A stretch of DNA of 64,000 nt from a virus. The translations under genes and the position numbers were made by a program. The stretch covers positions 1 through 64,000 of the IMG/VR virus record IMGVR_UViG_3300010413_000039. One strand, 5' to 3'. Below the pieces are notes generated by a model. That model ran no database searches. It was not told the origin of the DNA and was given only the letters and a program-made list of their open reading frames with translations. Positions 204-56,317 of this stretch are shown one piece after another (within the stretch, counting starts at the first letter, position 1; each line of letters begins with the position of its first letter).

Positions 204-274
204 GGTGGGATCGTCTAATGGCAGGATGGGTGTCTCCAAAACATTTGGTCAGGGTTCGAGTCCTTGTCCCACCG
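204..274 (+). tRNA. tRNA-Trp (CCA)
   Basis: Acceptor GGTGGGA (204-210) pairs with TCCCACC (267-273), with discriminator G274. The anticodon stem GGTGT/ACATT holds the 7-base loop CTCCAAA, giving anticodon CCA. The T stem CAGGG/CCTTG closes TTCGAGT. No CCA end is encoded; the next bases are CCTA. It is the first of seven tRNAs in the block. Confidence 0.93.
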
Positions 275-279
275 CCTAT

Positions 280-351
280 AGGATCGTAGTTTAGAGGCAA
301 GAACACTGGTTTCTCACACCAGTAGCAGGAGTTCGATTCTCCTCGATCCTA
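280..351 (+). tRNA. tRNA-Glu (CTC)
   Basis: Acceptor AGGATCG (280-286) pairs with CGATCCT (344-350), discriminator A351. The anticodon stem CTGGT/ACCAG holds TTCTCAC, so the anticodon is CTC, reading GAG. No CCA is encoded; the trailer is CTA. The next gene starts 3 bases after the discriminator. Confidence 0.93.
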
Positions 352-353
352 CT

Positions 354-566
354 ATGATAATCAGACAAAGACTAGTTGATTCAATATCACCGTTTTATCA
401 TCCAGAAGTTGTAGAAAGTGTTGCTGATGATATAATAAAAATGTATCAGCAGTGGGATCATGAGCAGATAAAAATACTAGTTGCAGGAAATTATCCTTAT
501 GATGGTACTGTTGAAGAGCATTCTGATGTAGGCGTTATCTTACTAACACTACCAAAGAGAATATAG
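354..566 (+). CDS. Small protein of unknown function (70 aa)
   Basis: The ATG lies 3 bases after the 3' end of tRNA-Glu, so there is no room for a Shine-Dalgarno sequence outside the tRNA itself. Translation would have to start on a leaderless message released by tRNA processing, or on read-through RNA. The protein starts MIIRQRLVDSISPFYHPEVV and looks mainly alpha-helical in its first half. I recognise no family. The stop is followed by GGAG serving the next gene. Confidence 0.6.
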   Translation: MIIRQRLVDSISPFYHPEVVESVADDIIKMYQQWDHEQIKILVAGNYPYDGTVEEHSDVGVILLTLPKRI

Positions 567-577
567 GAGTAAGTATA

Positions 578-790
578 GTGGTAGACCCATATAAAGAGTG
601 GAAAGATATGCCAGAGTTTGTTCAAGAAGATAAAGAGGCTGTTGCAAGAGTAGTAATAAATTTTGAGACAGAAGAGGACATTGATCTGTTTAATAAAGTA
701 ACTGGTCTTTCAATAACAAAGAAAACAAAGGGTGTTTTTTTCCCACTACCAAAGAAAACCACTAAGATGGTATATGTAGATGAAACCTAA
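578..790 (+). CDS. Small protein of unknown function (70 aa, GTG start)
   Basis: The GTG start is chosen because ATAGGAG lies about 9 bases upstream and no better ATG exists. The product is a small, charged soluble protein (MVDPYKEWKDMPEFVQEDKE...). The frame overlaps the start of the glycosyltransferase gene by 11 bases, implying translational coupling with it. No family recognised. Confidence 0.6.
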   Translation: MVDPYKEWKDMPEFVQEDKEAVARVVINFETEEDIDLFNKVTGLSITKKTKGVFFPLPKKTTKMVYVDET

Positions 791-1610
791 TTATCCTATC
801 TATATAATATCAAAAGGTAGGTGGGAAAATAATCTTACAAGTAAGTCTTTAGAAGAAATGGGAGTACCATATCATATTGTTGTAGAGCCACAAGAATATG
901 ATAATTATTCAAAAGTTATTGATCCAGATAAAATTTATACTTTACCATTCAGTAATTTAGGGCAGGGATCAATACCAGCACGTAATTGGGTGTGGGAACA
1001 TTCAATAAGTATTGGTGCACAACGCCATTGGATACTAGATGATAACATAAGAGGATTTGAAAGATTAAACAGAAATACAAGACACAAAGTTTTGACTGGT
1101 TCTATATTTAGAGCATCAGAAGATTTTGTCGACAGATATAAAAATGTTGCTTTGGCTGGTTTTGAGTATAGACAATTTGCTGGTGGTGCTAGAAGAAAAA
1201 AAGCACCTTTTAGATTAAATACAAGAATTTACTCTACGATACTTGTAAAAAATGATTTACCAATAAGATGGCGAGGAGTGTATAACGAAGATACAGATTT
1301 GAGTATAAGACTTCTTAAGATGGGGTATTGTACAATATTGTTTCAATGCTTTCTGCAGAATAAAGTAAAAACAATGACTATGGCTGGTGGAAATACGGAC
1401 ACTATTTATAAAGATGATTTAGATAGACGGAAATTTGCAGAGAGTTTGAAAGAACAGCATCCAGATATTGTTGATATTGTTTGGAGATATGGAAGATGGC
1501 ATCATAATGTAGACTATTCTGCATTCAAAGATAATGAATTGGTATTAAAAAACGGTCTTATTATACCAGATCGTATCAATAATTATGGTATGGTTCTTAT
1601 GCCCGATTAG
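780..1610 (+). CDS. TET-associated-type GT-A glycosyltransferase for DNA hypermodification
   Basis: The 276-residue protein has the hallmarks of the phage TET-associated glycosyltransferases: N-terminal YIISKGRW, IVVEPQEYD at residues 34-41, the block LPFSNLGQGSIPARNWVWEH near 55-74, and HWILDDNI at 83-90, whose Asp-Asp pair fits the metal/nucleotide-sugar site of a GT-A fold. In known systems these enzymes glycosylate 5-hydroxymethylcytosine in phage DNA after C5 methylation and TET oxidation. A C5 methyltransferase lies downstream in the same operon, which supports that role. No TET-like dioxygenase is visible in the window. The last 10 bases overlap tRNA-Arg, and the TAG stop is positions 8-10 of that tRNA. 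The sugar and target sequence are unknown. Confidence 0.75.
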   Translation: MKPNYPIYIISKGRWENNLTSKSLEEMGVPYHIVVEPQEYDNYSKVIDPDKIYTLPFSNLGQGSIPARNWVWEHSISIGAQRHWILDDNIRGFERLNRNTRHKVLTGSIFRASEDFVDRYKNVALAGFEYRQFAGGARRKKAPFRLNTRIYSTILVKNDLPIRWRGVYNEDTDLSIRLLKMGYCTILFQCFLQNKVKTMTMAGGNTDTIYKDDLDRRKFAESLKEQHPDIVDIVWRYGRWHHNVDYSAFKDNELVLKNGLIIPDRINNYGMVLMPD

Positions 1611-1672
1611 TGTAAGGGAAAACATACTTGGCTACGAACCAAGAGATAGGGGTTCAAATCCTCTATCGGGTA
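1601..1672 (+). tRNA. tRNA-Arg (ACG)
   Basis: Acceptor GCCCGAT (1601-1607) pairs with ATCGGGT (1665-1671), discriminator A1672. Anticodon stem CTTGG/CCAAG, loop CTACGAA, anticodon ACG, which needs host A-to-I editing to read CGN. No CCA is encoded; the trailer is CTA. Its U8-A9-G10 is the stop codon of the glycosyltransferase gene. Confidence 0.93.
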
Positions 1673-1684
1673 CTAGGAGAGAGC

Positions 1685-1954
1685 ATGGAGATTACAATAA
1701 CTGATAGAGAAATACTGGAATCAATCGGTAAATATGCATCTATAGAGACATTTGTTGTTGCAACATTAGTGGATCGTGGTGCACCACTAAAAATAAAAGC
1801 TGGTATATCACTTCCTATTCTACGATTACTGGTGTTGAAACAAGATTTTGAGTTTACAGATGGATACACATCAATGCTATATTATTATGATGAAGTCAAA
1901 AAAGTACATATTTGGAGATTTGAAAAGGAGTCACAAGATGAAAATATCCAATGA
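1685..1954 (+). CDS. Small protein of unknown function (89 aa)
   Basis: Start chosen at ATG 1685 because AGGAGA lies just upstream; an upstream in-frame TTG falls inside tRNA-Arg. The protein (MEITITDREILESIGKYAS...) looks like a soluble alpha/beta protein. No domain recognised. It overlaps the next gene by 17 bases, suggesting coupling. Confidence 0.6.
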   Translation: MEITITDREILESIGKYASIETFVVATLVDRGAPLKIKAGISLPILRLLVLKQDFEFTDGYTSMLYYYDEVKKVHIWRFEKESQDENIQ

Positions 1955-2129
1955 AAATGGTGTGGAGTTTGTTACTATTACAAGAGAAGAGTATCAGGCA
2001 CTGTTGAAGGATCAGATTTTTTTACAGTGTTTACAGAATGCTGGTGTTGATAATTGGGAAGGATACTCTGATGCTATCCAGTTGATGGAAGAGGAATACT
2101 ACCAAGAAAGAATATATGGATGTGCATAA
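1938..2129 (+). CDS. Small protein of unknown function (63 aa)
   Basis: ATG 1938 is preceded by AAAAGGAG at a 7-base spacing inside the end of the previous gene. The start MKISNENGVEFVTITREEY resembles small AbrB/antitoxin-like phage proteins only vaguely. The C-terminus is helical and acidic (LMEEEYYQERIYGCA). The stop lies 7 bases before tRNA-Phe. Confidence 0.6.
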   Translation: MKISNENGVEFVTITREEYQALLKDQIFLQCLQNAGVDNWEGYSDAIQLMEEEYYQERIYGCA

Positions 2130-2136
2130 AAAATAT

Positions 2137-2209
2137 GTGATCGTAGCTCAGTCGGTAGAGCGTTGGTCTGAAGAGCCAAGCGTCAGTGGTTCGATCCCAC
2201 TCGATCACA
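2137..2209 (+). tRNA. tRNA-Phe (GAA)
   Basis: Acceptor GTGATCG (2137-2143) pairs with CGATCAC (2202-2208), discriminator A2209. D arm GCTC/GAGC, anticodon stem TTGGT/GCCAA with loop CTGAAGA, anticodon GAA. Trailer CTA, no encoded CCA. Confidence 0.93.
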
Positions 2210-2215
2210 CTAAAA

Positions 2216-2290
2216 GGTCATGTGGTGTAACAGGTTAACATACTACCCTGTCAAGGTAGAGACGTGCGAGTTCGAGCCTCGTCATGACCG
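2216..2290 (+). tRNA. tRNA-Asp (GTC)
   Basis: Acceptor GGTCATG (2216-2222) pairs with CATGACC (2283-2289), discriminator G2290. Anticodon stem CTACC/GGTAG with loop CTGTCAA, anticodon GTC. The methyltransferase start codon lies 10 bases after its 3' end. Trailer CTA, no encoded CCA. Confidence 0.93.
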
Positions 2291-2300
2291 CTAAAACAAA

Positions 2301-3182
2301 ATGAAAGTATTAAGTTTATTCGATGGAATATCCTGTGGGCAGGTTGCTTTAGAACGATCTGGTATACATGTTACTGAGTATTTTTCATCCGAAATAAATA
2401 GATTTGCGGTAGATGTTGTATCAAAACATTACCCACATACCACACAATTAGGTGATGTTGCCCAGTGGAAAACGTGGAAACTCCCAAAGATAGATTTACT
2501 AATAGGTGGTAGTCCATGTCAGGGTTTTTCTACTGCTGGAAAGTATCTAAATTTTGATGATCCTAGAAGTGTTCTGTTTTTCAAATACGTTGATGTACTC
2601 AGATCAATAAAACCAGAATACTTTATTTTTGAAAATGTGGTAATGGATAAATCAGTTGAATATGCCATAAGTTATGAATTAGGTGTTACTCCTGTTATGT
2701 TAGATTCTTCTCTAGTATCTGCACAAAGCAGGAAAAGACATTACTGGACAAACATAAACATAAAATCTATAGAAGACCGTTTTATATATCTTGATTCTGT
2801 TCTTGACAAATCACACATACCACATCACAAAATTCAGGATAAATTTTATTATCAGATTAATGAGTATGTGGATAAAGAGTGGTTAACAATAGGATATTCT
2901 AGAAAGAATGGATTTTTAAGGGAGTTAGAAAAATCATTATCTGTTCTTGCAAGTGATTATAAAGGAAGTTCTGGTCTCAATAGAAATCAAGCCCAAACTG
3001 CTGTTGTAAATACTGTTAGCATGACATATCGAGCATTAAATTTTCTAGAGAGAGAAAGATTGCAGACACTTCCAGAAGGGTATACTGATACTCTAAGTAA
3101 TTACCAAAGGTATATGACTATTGGTAACGGGTTTACAGTAGATATTATTGTAGAGATATTAAGATCACTTATGTGCCCTTAG
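2301..3182 (+). CDS. DNA (cytosine-C5) methyltransferase, orphan, copy 1
   Basis: The 293-residue protein has the C5-methyltransferase motifs in order: I (LSLFDGISCG, cofactor site, residues 4-13), IV (GGSPCQGFS, nucleophile Cys73), VI (FENV, 110-113), VIII-like (QSRKRHYW) and the C-terminal X region (GNGFTVDII). It transfers a methyl group from S-adenosylmethionine to C5 of cytosine. No restriction endonuclease is adjacent, so it is likely self-protection, or the first step of hypermodification with the glycosyltransferase upstream. It is a clear paralogue of the enzyme at 45555-46559. No Shine-Dalgarno sequence precedes the ATG, which lies 10 bases after tRNA-Asp. The TAG stop is inside tRNA-Asn. 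Confidence 0.93.
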   Translation: MKVLSLFDGISCGQVALERSGIHVTEYFSSEINRFAVDVVSKHYPHTTQLGDVAQWKTWKLPKIDLLIGGSPCQGFSTAGKYLNFDDPRSVLFFKYVDVLRSIKPEYFIFENVVMDKSVEYAISYELGVTPVMLDSSLVSAQSRKRHYWTNINIKSIEDRFIYLDSVLDKSHIPHHKIQDKFYYQINEYVDKEWLTIGYSRKNGFLRELEKSLSVLASDYKGSSGLNRNQAQTAVVNTVSMTYRALNFLERERLQTLPEGYTDTLSNYQRYMTIGNGFTVDIIVEILRSLMCP

Positions 3183-3245
3183 CTCAGTCGGTAGAGCAAT
3201 CGGCTGTTAACCGATGTGTCGATGGTTCGAGTCCATCAGGGTACG
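3173..3245 (+). tRNA. tRNA-Asn (GTT)
   Basis: Acceptor GTGCCCT (3173-3179) pairs with AGGGTAC (3238-3244, one G-U), discriminator G3245. Anticodon stem ATCGG/CCGAT, loop CTGTTAA, anticodon GTT. Its U8-A9-G10 (3180-3182) is the stop codon of the methyltransferase gene. Trailer CTA, after which the RNase P RNA starts. Confidence 0.93.
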
Positions 3246-3248
3246 CTA

Positions 3249-3443
3249 AACCAACAAGAGGGGTCTACGCTGGAAACAGAGGAACTTCAAGACACTACTG
3301 CTTAAGGTAGGAGGGGAAACCCGTCTTACTACCGAGAGTGCAAGCCCAAGCAGACTTAGCAGGTGAGCAGTGCAATAATAGTCGGGTAGGGTGCAAAGAT
3401 AAATGTAGACATAAAACAGAATCTTGGGTACGCTCAGTTGGTT
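3249..3443 (+). ncRNA. rnpB: Compact RNase P RNA encoded inside the phage tRNA array
   Basis: The 195-base segment folds with the core of a bacterial RNase P RNA. P1 is AACCAAC (3249-3255) with GTTGGTT (3437-3443). P2 is GTCTAC (3263-3268) with GTAGAC (3405-3410). P3 is a minimal CTG-GAAA-CAG hairpin. The universal P4 is ACTTCAAGA (3284-3292) with TCTTGGGT (3422-3429), including the conserved bulged U at 3287. Matches to bacterial conserved regions include GAGGAA before P4, AGGGGAAACCCGTC, CCGAGAGTGCAAGCC, and ACAGAATCTTGGGTA at the 3' end, aligning with ACAGAACCCGGCTTA. At about half the usual length it keeps the catalytic core but much of the specificity domain is reduced. The likely role is 5' maturation of the surrounding tRNAs, with a host protein subunit. 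The assignment is from sequence and pairing by eye. Confidence 0.82.
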
Positions 3444-3447
3444 ATAT

Positions 3448-3520
<73 letters not shown>

Positions 3521-3522
3521 CT

Positions 3523-4626
3523 ATGTATAAACTTAAAAATCTTTTTATTCTATTATTGATGTTTATTACATTTACTACATCAAAGGGAGATGAGCATATG
3601 ACTTATCTTCCTTTTGTGCTTAATTATGTTTATTCATATCAGGCTAGTTGTGGTAATAAGTTATATGGATCATCAGTATACAGGGGTGTTATTGACAATG
3701 CTGATGACTGGTTGCATTTTGTTAACAACTTCTCAATAGGAACACCAGAAGTATCTTTGAAGATGGAATATACACAACCAGCCTATGGTGTTTGGGACTT
3801 TACAAAGAGCGACTATGTCGTAAACTCATTAGTTGAAGAGAATAAAAAAGTATTCGGTCACAATATATTCTGGCATATTTTCAACCCAAGCTGGTTTGAG
3901 GATGGTAATTTCTCAAAGAGCCAGATTGAACAAATGGCGTATGAAAGAATAGATAAATTAGTATCGCATTACGATAATACAATAACAGATTGGGATTTGG
4001 CTAATGAGTTAATAAATGAGTACGGTACATACAGGGATACGAAATGGAATTTCGGATATGATTATTTAGGTAAGGTTTTTGAATATGCCCACTCAAAATA
4101 TCCAGATAAGAATTTCTGGTACAATGACGTGTTTGGTCAGTATGGACTTCCTGATGGATGGAAGAACAGGATCAGGGAATTAGCACGTTCTGGAAATTTA
4201 TATGGGGTTGGTTTCCAACTGCACATAGATGGTTGGTATGATAAGACGGTTGCGTGGAATGAGATAATGGATTTTTCACGTGAATTAGGTTTTATGGGCG
4301 TGCGTGTAAGGATCAGTGAATTAGATGTTCAGGTAAGAACAGCCTGTCCAGATAACTGTTATGAAGAGACAGGTATATATCAAACAGACTTTGAAAACCA
4401 ATCAGTAATAATAAATGATGCCTATAACCTATGTGCTGATTTATGGAACTGCACAGACGTAACATGGTGGGGAATAAATGATGATAGGAATTGGAGATCG
4501 AGCGATAAGTATCCAGCTTATGGGTATGCAACAAATTGGTATGGTGATTATTATGTGCGGAATTTGGACAAACATCATATAATTTGTTATGAAGATATTG
4601 TCTATTTTGAGAGAGAGTGGAAATAG
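3523..4626 (+). CDS. Secreted glycoside hydrolase family 10 (xylanase-type)
   Basis: The 367-residue protein starts with a signal peptide (MYKLKNLFILLLMFITFTTS), then MTYLPFVLN, then a GH10 barrel. Diagnostic GH10 blocks are GHNIFWH (residues 112-118), the acid/base Glu162 in DLANE, GFQLHI (230-235) and the nucleophile Glu266 in RISELDV. Both catalytic glutamates are present, so hydrolysis of beta-1,4-xylan or a related host or biofilm glycan is expected outside the cell. The ATG lies 3 bases after tRNA-Ile with no Shine-Dalgarno. An internal ATG at 3598 with GGGAGATG upstream would give a version without signal peptide. The first start is preferred because of the signal peptide and its parallel in the gene at 26322. 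Confidence 0.85.
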   Translation: MYKLKNLFILLLMFITFTTSKGDEHMTYLPFVLNYVYSYQASCGNKLYGSSVYRGVIDNADDWLHFVNNFSIGTPEVSLKMEYTQPAYGVWDFTKSDYVVNSLVEENKKVFGHNIFWHIFNPSWFEDGNFSKSQIEQMAYERIDKLVSHYDNTITDWDLANELINEYGTYRDTKWNFGYDYLGKVFEYAHSKYPDKNFWYNDVFGQYGLPDGWKNRIRELARSGNLYGVGFQLHIDGWYDKTVAWNEIMDFSRELGFMGVRVRISELDVQVRTACPDNCYEETGIYQTDFENQSVIINDAYNLCADLWNCTDVTWWGINDDRNWRSSDKYPAYGYATNWYGDYYVRNLDKHHIICYEDIVYFEREWK

Positions 4627-4628
4627 TC

Positions 4629-4657
4629 TTGACAAATAATACTTAATGTGGTATAAT
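4629..4657 (+). promoter_or_regulatory. Strong vegetative promoter (TTGACA-N17-TATAAT)
   Basis: Perfect -35 TTGACA at 4629-4634 and -10 TATAAT at 4652-4657, 17 bases apart, with an extended -10 (TGTGG before TATAAT). The same TGTGGTATAAT context recurs in minus-strand promoters at 36.7 and 39.3 kb. The predicted start is near 4664, exactly at the base of the first hairpin of the downstream RNA. Confidence 0.9.
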
Positions 4658-45426: not shown

Positions 45427-45565
45427 GCTTTCTCCTTATTGCTGTTATAAGAATGAATGCTGATACAGATATTGGTACTGCTAACCACTGTTCTGGTACT
45501 TCTATACGGAACATAAGTGATACCAGCAGTCCTATCGTAATGGATGCCAAGAAATTAAGAGCCAT
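45419..45565 (-). CDS. Very small membrane protein (48 aa)
   Basis: Reads MALNFLASITIGLLVSLMFR ... SVSAFILITAIRRKHE: two hydrophobic segments and a basic tail. ATG overlaps the end of the methyltransferase gene by 11 bases, and its end overlaps the next start, so it sits snugly in the operon. Confidence 0.5.
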   Translation of the reverse strand: MALNFLASITIGLLVSLMFRIEVPEQWLAVPISVSAFILITAIRRKHE

Positions 45566-46559
45566 TATGCAGTCCTTTCAGTATATGTGTTGTTACGTCT
45601 ACAGTCCAGCTATTACCAAGAGCCTTATAACGTTGATGGTTGCTGATCTTCTTTACTCTCCCATCGAAATTTCCGTAGGCTGTATACCCGTCCTCAAATG
45701 TTTGAAGTCTTTCACATTCTATTGGATCAAACTTACGTACACACTTTTCCGTGATCAGTACGTTGTAAGGTACTCCCTTACGAAAGTTTGCTACCACTGC
45801 AGATGATTTGTTGTCCTTTACGTCTGAGTGATGATTGAAATTCCAGTGTGTCCTACCATCCTTTACCTGCCTGTTCATGTACTCCATTTCATTATCTGAC
45901 AGGATCAGATAAGGTATATGCCCACCACCACTATTTGGACGTATTGCAGGTGATTTGTCATAGTATGCACGTGGTTCATGCTCTCCCCACCTACCATACA
46001 TATCATGCAGTGCTGGTGGGTGAACGTCATCAAGAATGATGTCCTTTAGCAGGATACCTGCATCTTTTGGCTGAGTGATCTCAAAGTTTGACCAGTAAAC
46101 TCTCGGTCTTTTCTGTGCTGATAAGAGAGCACTGTTGATATGGATAGGATCAACTCCTACGAATGATGTCATGGTATCTATCCATTCAGTTTTCATCTTG
46201 ACATTCTCAAGCAGGAATTTAACATCAGGGTTGTTGTGCTCACGTACCCATTTCAGGATGTCAACGAATGTGAAGAACAGTTTTGATCTAGGATCATCGA
46301 AATTCAAACCATCGCCCGCAGGCGAGAAACCCTGACATGGCGAACCTGCAAGGATCAAATCTATCTTATCGGTAAAGATGTCCCAAGATTCCCATTCCTG
46401 CACATCACCCAACTGGATAGTATCTGGATAGTTGTGTTGTGTAATGGCTATTGCATACTTATCTATTTCACTGGCATAGTATTTATCAACCTGAATACCT
46501 GCACGTTCAAGTGAAACACGTCCTGCTGATATGCCATCAAACAAAGAGAGCACTATCAT
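45555..46559 (-). CDS. DNA (cytosine-C5) methyltransferase, orphan, copy 2
   Basis: A 334-residue C5 methyltransferase: motif I LSLFDGISAG, motif IV AGSPCQGFSPAG with nucleophile Cys75, motif VI LENV (117-120), QKRPRVYW, and GNSWTVDVTTHIL at the C-terminus. It is about half identical by eye to the copy at 2301 in the first 160 residues, including LNFDDPRS after motif IV, but the target-recognition regions differ. This points to duplication with a new target sequence. No endonuclease is adjacent. It is read from the type B promoter at 46996, so it is likely made early. Confidence 0.94.
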   Translation of the reverse strand: MIVLSLFDGISAGRVSLERAGIQVDKYYASEIDKYAIAITQHNYPDTIQLGDVQEWESWDIFTDKIDLILAGSPCQGFSPAGDGLNFDDPRSKLFFTFVDILKWVREHNNPDVKFLLENVKMKTEWIDTMTSFVGVDPIHINSALLSAQKRPRVYWSNFEITQPKDAGILLKDIILDDVHPPALHDMYGRWGEHEPRAYYDKSPAIRPNSGGGHIPYLILSDNEMEYMNRQVKDGRTHWNFNHHSDVKDNKSSAVVANFRKGVPYNVLITEKCVRKFDPIECERLQTFEDGYTAYGNFDGRVKKISNHQRYKALGNSWTVDVTTHILKGLHNGS

Positions 46560-56196: not shown

Positions 56197-56317
56197 GGAC
56201 GGTGGTGGGATTCAAACCCACAACCTCCCATCTTTCCCTAGTGTTGATCAGACACTTTCCGAGGATGATCAATCCTCTACAGGATCATGAGTGCTCTACC
56301 AGTTGAGCTACACCGCC
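56197..56317 (-). ncRNA. tRNA-like domain with 55-nt insertion in place of the anticodon loop
   Basis: Minus strand: acceptor GGCGGTG (56317-56311) with CACCGTC (56204-56198); D arm GCTC-AACTGGTA-GAGC; anticodon-type stem CTCAT with ATGGG; variable AGGTT; T arm GTGGG-TTTGAAT-CCCAC. Everything is standard tRNA length except the anticodon loop, where 55 bases replace 7. The insert holds AGTGT-CTGATCA-ACACT, itself like an anticodon arm, and an ATCC/GGAT hairpin. It may be a decoded-out tRNA serving as an RNA end structure, or a tRNA with an unusual intron. Confidence 0.6.

Follow-up and report, generated by a model that had tools for sequence, protein, structure and literature searches.

RNase P RNA is generally counted among the core ribozymes of cells. 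Here we describe a predicted RNase P RNA of a phage, at positions 3249-3443 (+ strand) of a 64,000-nt stretch (the window) of IMG/VR record IMGVR_UViG_3300010413_000039, which is 68,390 bases in full. The RNA lies in a tRNA array in which two protein-coding genes share their stop codons with the tRNAs that follow them. We name its helices by the nomenclature of bacterial type A RNase P RNA (RF00010), with which it has in common P1-P4, CR-I (GAGGAA), the bulged U of P4, CR-IV (GCAAG..AAACAG), P15, CR-V (..AATG..ACAGAA) and the P6 pseudoknot. It differs from type A in its length (~195 nt in the window), in having one hairpin in place of P8-P14, in scoring under the Rfam cut-off, and in that no partner protein gene was found in the phage records searched. 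In the archaeal type T RNase P RNA of Pyrobaculum the specificity domain is almost entirely lost, and the phage RNA resembles type T in the near-complete loss of this domain. In contrast to type T, the RNA described here is phage-borne, P6 and P15 are present, and the evidence points to bacterial hosts.

The arrangement of the array resembles mitochondrial tRNA punctuation, in which tRNAs lie at gene borders, cuts at their 5' and 3' ends release the mRNAs, and stop codons are completed by polyadenylation. In both cases start and stop codons are found next to or inside tRNAs. However, cutting would remove the phage stops, whereas the mitochondrial ones are completed, and in the phage such processing is a prediction from sequence.

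Two kinds of RNA reported from other genomes are also relevant. Bacteria of the candidate phyla radiation have diverged RNase P RNAs with missing helices that were recovered only at lowered score cut-offs (PMC8172020). Absent helices and the need for relaxed cut-offs are features of the phage RNA as well, but the candidate phyla radiation RNAs come from cellular genomes, and phage copies are unmentioned in the available part of that paper (PMC8172020). GOLLD and ROOL are large phage RNAs of unknown function located by tRNA islands (PMC12286853). Their setting is like that of the phage RNase P RNA, but their fold is unrelated to it. We found no report of a phage-encoded RNase P RNA in the literature searched, which took in no preprints and few subscription papers. 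RNase P RNA itself is a familiar kind of molecule; a phage-borne class with a reduced specificity domain, situated in tRNA arrays, appears unreported as far as we searched.

A predicted RNase P RNA between tRNA-Asn and tRNA-Ile

RNase P signatures were spotted by eye in the stretch of 200 bases that separates tRNA-Asn from tRNA-Ile. The initial annotation of this DNA, which was concerned with the stop codons of the array, did not include the RNA. At a relaxed threshold, the window RNA matched the Rfam model RNaseP_arch over its entire length (model positions 1-288 of 288) with 47.9 bits and an E value of 1.1e-12, a significant hit within the RNase P clan of Rfam (CL00002). Among the phage RNAs, the best score with RNaseP_bact_a was 42.9 bits, against a gathering score of 100 bits. 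We also built a covariance model, R1, from 14 phage relatives, excluding the window RNA. R1 recognized the core of the window RNA (3279-3430) with 136.3 bits (E 2e-35).

The window RNA has the elements expected of RNase P, all on the + strand. P1 is formed by 3249-3255 and 3437-3443 (AACCAAC/GUUGGUU) and P2 by 3263-3268 and 3405-3410. CR-I (GAGGAA) is at 3279, and P4, with one bulged U, pairs 3284-3292 with 3422-3429 (ACU-U-CAAGA/UCUUG-GGU); P4 lies between CR-I and CR-V, the ACAGAA of which is at 3416. P15 (3353-3356/3380-3383) and CR-IV are also present. In place of a full specificity domain (P7-P14) there is one hairpin, at 3306-3333. Because of this single hairpin we place the RNA in a separate, reduced class and not in type A. 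By its sequence and covariation, 3249-3443 carries an RNase P catalytic core with a specificity domain cut to one hairpin.

We aligned 15 phage RNAs and found that the named structure pairs in 84.6% of cells. Pairing was most complete in P7 (98.3%), P2 (97.7%) and P15 (96.5%), and reached 81.9% in the P6 pseudoknot, in which six of seven pairs have changed on both sides. These four helices covary, and none of them was used as a selection criterion. The covariation score of the alignment was 0.536, compared to 0.182 for shuffled alignments (0/500 shuffles) and at most 0.147 when the structure was slid by 1-3 columns. The inner pairs of the specificity domain were weak as aligned (23-38%). The bulged U of P4 was kept in 14 of the 15 RNAs; in the homologue of one relative (G002; L125 5387-5540) the bulge is an A.

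Covariation across very different records shows that selection on the fold continues. It bears on the notion that the overlaps and the RNA are unrelated, with host RNase P doing all of the processing and the phage RNA a decaying passenger. Phages such as T4 and KVP40 do manage without an RNase P RNA, but a passenger would not be expected to covary as these RNAs do, beyond all 500 shuffles, and we consider this notion very improbable.

Occurrence among phages and placement in tRNA arrays

The window record encodes a portal protein (PF04860), and a search with that protein found no relatives in the viral_contigs and phages collections. Five related records (G001-G005) were recovered through the capsid protein. 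The arrays of the three larger ones contain 34 (G002), 6 (G004) and 39 (G005) Rfam tRNA matches. The homologue in G005 matched RNaseP_bact_a (E 1.9e-13) and sits 3 nt upstream of a tRNA-Asn, and that in G002 matched RNaseP_arch (E 1.3e-10). No RNase P RNA match was found in G004, a 45-kb fragment, or in the short records G001 and G003.

By blastn, the G005 RNA matched unannotated gaps in the cultured Stenotrophomonas phage vB_SmaS-DLP_6 and in the 735-kb phage records LR756501 and LR756503. The DLP_6 homologue lies at about 105,780-106,025 of KU682439. A first motif scan gave 96 contigs, and only three of these (L139, L152, which is G002, and L203) looked real; the rest, with no tRNAs at the locus and no pairing in P4, were discarded as chance matches. 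A second motif gave 39 contigs. All 39 matched R1, although 9 of the 14 sequences in R1 come from these contigs (G005 among them) and the motif itself selects part of the RNA. A strict P4 filter was passed by 24 of the 39. R1 found one strong match each in 12 of 15 records, with a weak second match (E 0.03) in W01, and strong matches in 4 of 11 further named phages (LR756500, LR756502, LR756508 and LR756511). A match in Enterocloster phage CB457P2 (E 0.097) was judged to be chance.

In a collection of cellular genomes, the second motif was found in only one contig, which has five tRNAs, scores 140.6 bits with R1 and is possibly itself a phage contig. This motif was derived from a phage subclass and does not match the window RNA, so the contrast between phage and cellular collections is biased to phages. 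Of 18 records, 6 have a match to the terminase family PF03237; the viral status of the others is that given by IMG/VR or by structural genes. We take the huge-phage paper to be the source of the LR7565xx records. In the main text of that paper the term "RNase P" occurs 0 times (PMC7162821). As judged from sequence and predicted structure, the class occurs in the tRNA arrays of many phage contigs, of huge-phage records and of cultured phage DLP_6.

A viral class in which the specificity domain is minimal would bring phages within the range of RNase P RNA. It would help to account for the way in which some tRNA-rich phages equip their tRNAs, and would offer small natural ribozymes for probing minimal RNase P. 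The homologue in DLP_6 would make the class open to experiment now. Since curated cut-offs hide the class, many phage genomes may be incompletely annotated.

We examined the position of the RNA relative to tRNAs at 40 loci. A tRNA begins within 30 nt 3' of the core in 14 and ends within 60 nt 5' of the core in 12; 6, including the window, have tRNAs on both sides. GOLLD RNAs share tRNA arrays with phage RNase P RNA at two loci (L238 1003-1462; L267 10629-11095, - strand).

We found no match to the RnpA family in any of 18 records (10 of 14 control genomes were positive), and so the host RnpA protein is probably used. This result is also compatible with a decoy, an RNA that sequesters host RnpA and lowers host tRNA maturation while residual host enzyme processes the phage tRNAs. 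The reduced specificity domain would suit a decoy as well. However, conservation among the phage RNAs is highest in the catalytic-core nucleotides and P4, for which a protein decoy would have no use, and the RNAs sit inside tRNA arrays. We think a decoy is unlikely. It is also conceivable that the RNA has RNase P activity but acts chiefly on other RNAs, since RNase P biochemistry implies that a reduced specificity domain would loosen substrate choice, and host tRNAs or mRNAs might then be cut. But there is a single strong copy per record, adjoining the tRNAs of its own array, and activity directed mainly elsewhere seems to us somewhat less probable still than a decoy.

The Rfam label RNaseP_arch raised the possibility of an archaeal host, which we rejected: the tmRNA genes of the relatives and a homologue of a RecBCD inhibitor in the window point to bacterial hosts. 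All three larger relatives (G002, G004 and G005) have tmRNA genes, and a tmRNA or permuted tmRNA is present in L135, L139 and L267. The permuted tmRNA of DLP_6 (KU682439; L135 1-175) scores 86.8 bits and is clipped by the edge of the locus. The main text of the DLP6 paper does not mention a tmRNA (PMC5349666).

tRNA punctuation and the shared stop codons

The first 4.6 kb of the window contain seven tRNAs interleaved with genes on a single strand, packed end to end. Two genes overlap the next tRNA by 10 nt. The gene for a TET-associated glycosyltransferase (TAGT; 780-1610, +, 276 aa; Pfam TAGT PF20691, E 2e-45) ends in a TAG at 1608-1610, which is nt 8-10 of tRNA-Arg(acg) (1601-1673, +; ARAGORN; Rfam 60.3 bits). 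The gene for a C5-cytosine methyltransferase (2301-3182, +, 293 aa; DNA_methylase PF00145, E 1e-37) ends in a TAG at 3180-3182, which is nt 8-10 of tRNA-Asn(gtt) (3173-3246, +; ARAGORN; Rfam 68.3 bits). Both shared stops had been reported in the initial annotation, and the open reading frame (ORF) calls and the tRNA borders given by ARAGORN and Rfam bear them out.

We found that shared stops recur in other phages. TAG occupies nt 8-10 in 35 of 83 tRNAs of the window phage and its relatives, the corresponding count for other tRNA-rich phages being 177 of 492, and so any gene that enters a tRNA in that frame terminates there. The ends of ORFs of at least 80 aa peak at tRNA nt 8 (4 in the relatives and 10 in other phages). 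For 540 tRNAs from tRNA-rich phages, we compared stop triplets at nt 8 with those at nt 11-71. An ORF of at least 80 aa was terminated by 13 of the 244 stops at nt 8, compared to 14 of the 1379 deeper ones (Fisher p 4e-5); with a minimum of 150 aa the counts were 8/244 and 4/1379 (Fisher p 6.7e-5). The tRNA-shared stop is a genuine, recurrent arrangement that is not unique to this phage.

We also compared records that have the RNase P RNA to five well-known phages that do not; these five are the only controls, their 113 tRNAs are a subset of 130 counted, and tRNAs within one genome are not independent. ORFs ended at nt 8 in 14 of 573 tRNAs in the records with the RNA and in 0 of 113 in the controls, a difference that is not significant (p 0.14). 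When ends within 30 nt upstream of the tRNA were included, the counts were 78/573 and 3/113 (p 3.5e-4). Gene ends abut tRNAs in these records, as in tRNA punctuation.

We think it likely, from the sequence and its comparison with other phages, that this is a tRNA-punctuated phage operon encoding its own RNase P RNA, which would cut the operon's transcript together with host RnpA and thereby remove two stop codons, the overlaps themselves being due to compaction. Genes, tRNAs and ribozyme would be on one transcript. While the RNA is still uncut, ribosomes would produce the glycosyltransferase and the methyltransferase. Cutting at the 5' end of every tRNA would follow, by the ribozyme together with host RnpA or by the host's own enzyme, and would free the tRNAs and the ribozyme. 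Cuts at tRNA-Arg and tRNA-Asn would remove the stops of the two genes and leave non-stop mRNAs, and tmRNA, which the related phages carry, could rescue the ribosomes on them. A phage tmRNA would be in keeping with a genome that has many potential non-stop mRNAs. The cut at tRNA-Ile would also create the 3' end of the RNase P RNA, and removal of tRNA-Asn its 5' end. A more elaborate version is that the ribozyme, which has no protein gene, matures by cutting its own 3' tRNA, that the phage times tRNA release together with stop loss, and that phage tmRNA clears the ribosomes. We regard this version as possible but doubtful.

Several observations weigh against the reading that we favor. The window RNA scores below the gathering score of RNaseP_arch (47.9 vs 84 bits), and because it lies under this cut-off a standard Rfam scan is blank at 3249-3443. 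At gathering scores, there was no RNase P family in the window and none among the 150 matches listed (of 156) for 12 phage loci. P4 pairs in 100% of cells, partly as a result of selection, since 10 of the 15 RNAs were filtered for P4 complementarity; P4 is also fully paired in the five that were not. P1 is a weak helix as aligned, with 58.9% of cells paired. Sequence by sequence, P1 is mostly a perfect helix of at least 7 pairs at a similar place, as given by a script that takes the longest complement and so includes some chance helices. The specificity domain, which reads the T loop of tRNA, is nearly lost, and the RNA might have little or no activity unless RnpA is present. There was no R1 match in T4, S-CRM01, KVP40, CcrColossus, Atu_ph07 or LR756504; tRNA-rich phages without the RNA indicate that phage tRNAs can be processed without it. 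Lastly, searches for tmRNA in the window and at 63001-68390 gave no match.

We asked how the overlaps arose. Neither the glycosyltransferase gene nor the methyltransferase gene was found in the five related records. Elsewhere, among the 78 glycosyltransferase homologues whose stop was identified, 50 terminate on a stop codon of their own at -2 to +5 residues relative to the end of the window protein, and the nearest methyltransferase homologues (L005 and L006) also terminate on their own stops. The loci of these homologues are free of tRNAs, except for one tRNA on the opposite strand in L051. The initial annotation had suggested seeing whether relatives keep the overlap; because the genes were not found in the related records and homologues elsewhere terminate clear of tRNAs, the shared stop is not a conserved feature of these genes. 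Homologues without a tRNA stop at about the same residue, and so compaction accounts for the overlap. We scanned seven other proteins that end at nt 8. Four belong to endonuclease families, one is a dCMP deaminase, one has a helix-turn-helix and one had no match. That these genes are largely endonuclease-like mobile genes suggests insertion next to tRNAs, use of the nearest stop, and compaction.

The initial annotation had also proposed that RNase P cutting removes the stop codon, such that tRNA maturation and enzyme output are mutually exclusive on each transcript. The geometry of the first part holds: a cut before nt 1 would remove the last two codons and the stop, and the mRNA would become non-stop. 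With termination at nt 8-10 of a tRNA, the ribosome would cover the acceptor and D arm. Nothing shows regulation, and mutual exclusion is too strong a claim, because one mRNA may go through many rounds of translation before the cut. The overlap could nonetheless have been selected as a switch, with tRNA release and enzyme synthesis competing on each transcript. The geometry fits a switch, and nt-8 stops are over-represented as the ends of long ORFs. But a selected switch is hard to reconcile with homologues that lack the overlap, with the failure to find the two genes in the related records, and with the mostly mobile, endonuclease-like nature of the other nt-8 genes, and we judge it improbable. 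Most likely, the overlaps are a tolerated outcome of compaction, with no dedicated switch.

Other features of the array and the window

The remaining features of the array are all on the + strand. tRNA-Trp(cca) (204-276; ARAGORN, Rfam) is followed by tRNA-Glu(ctc) (280-352; ARAGORN) and by an ORF that begins with the ATG at 354, 2 nt past the 3' end of tRNA-Glu. Downstream of tRNA-Arg is a small gene (1938-2129) for the homologue of the RecBCD inhibitor T7 gp5.9 (PF25708, E 9e-20), followed by tRNA-Phe(gaa) (2137-2210; ARAGORN, Rfam) and tRNA-Asp(gtc) (2216-2291; ARAGORN, Rfam). tRNA-Ile(gat) (3448-3521; ARAGORN, Rfam) begins 4 nt past P1 of the RNase P RNA. The ATG of a GH10 glycosyl hydrolase gene (3523-4626) lies 2 nt past the end of this tRNA; the protein, of xylanase type, has a hydrophobic N-terminus.

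We looked in G000 for a TET enzyme to partner the TAGT gene and found none. A second C5-methyltransferase gene, at 45555-46559 (- strand), encodes a protein with ~50% identity to the first over the matched parts. Promoter-like matches in the window were at chance level (21 found vs 22.6 expected). A perfect (12/12) sigma-70 promoter, its second hexamer preceded by TG, is present at 4629-4657, upstream of the structural genes.

In the 82 tRNAs of the window (204-3521) and its relatives (L124-L129), the discriminator is followed by C at nt 74 in 77 cases, but CCA is never encoded. The two nucleotides after the discriminator are CT in 44, CA in 17 and CC in 16. Two Rfam tRNA matches that ARAGORN misses have an insert of ~50 nt in the anticodon arm: one in the window (56197-56317, - strand, 121 nt) and one in L128 (6479-6597, 119 nt).

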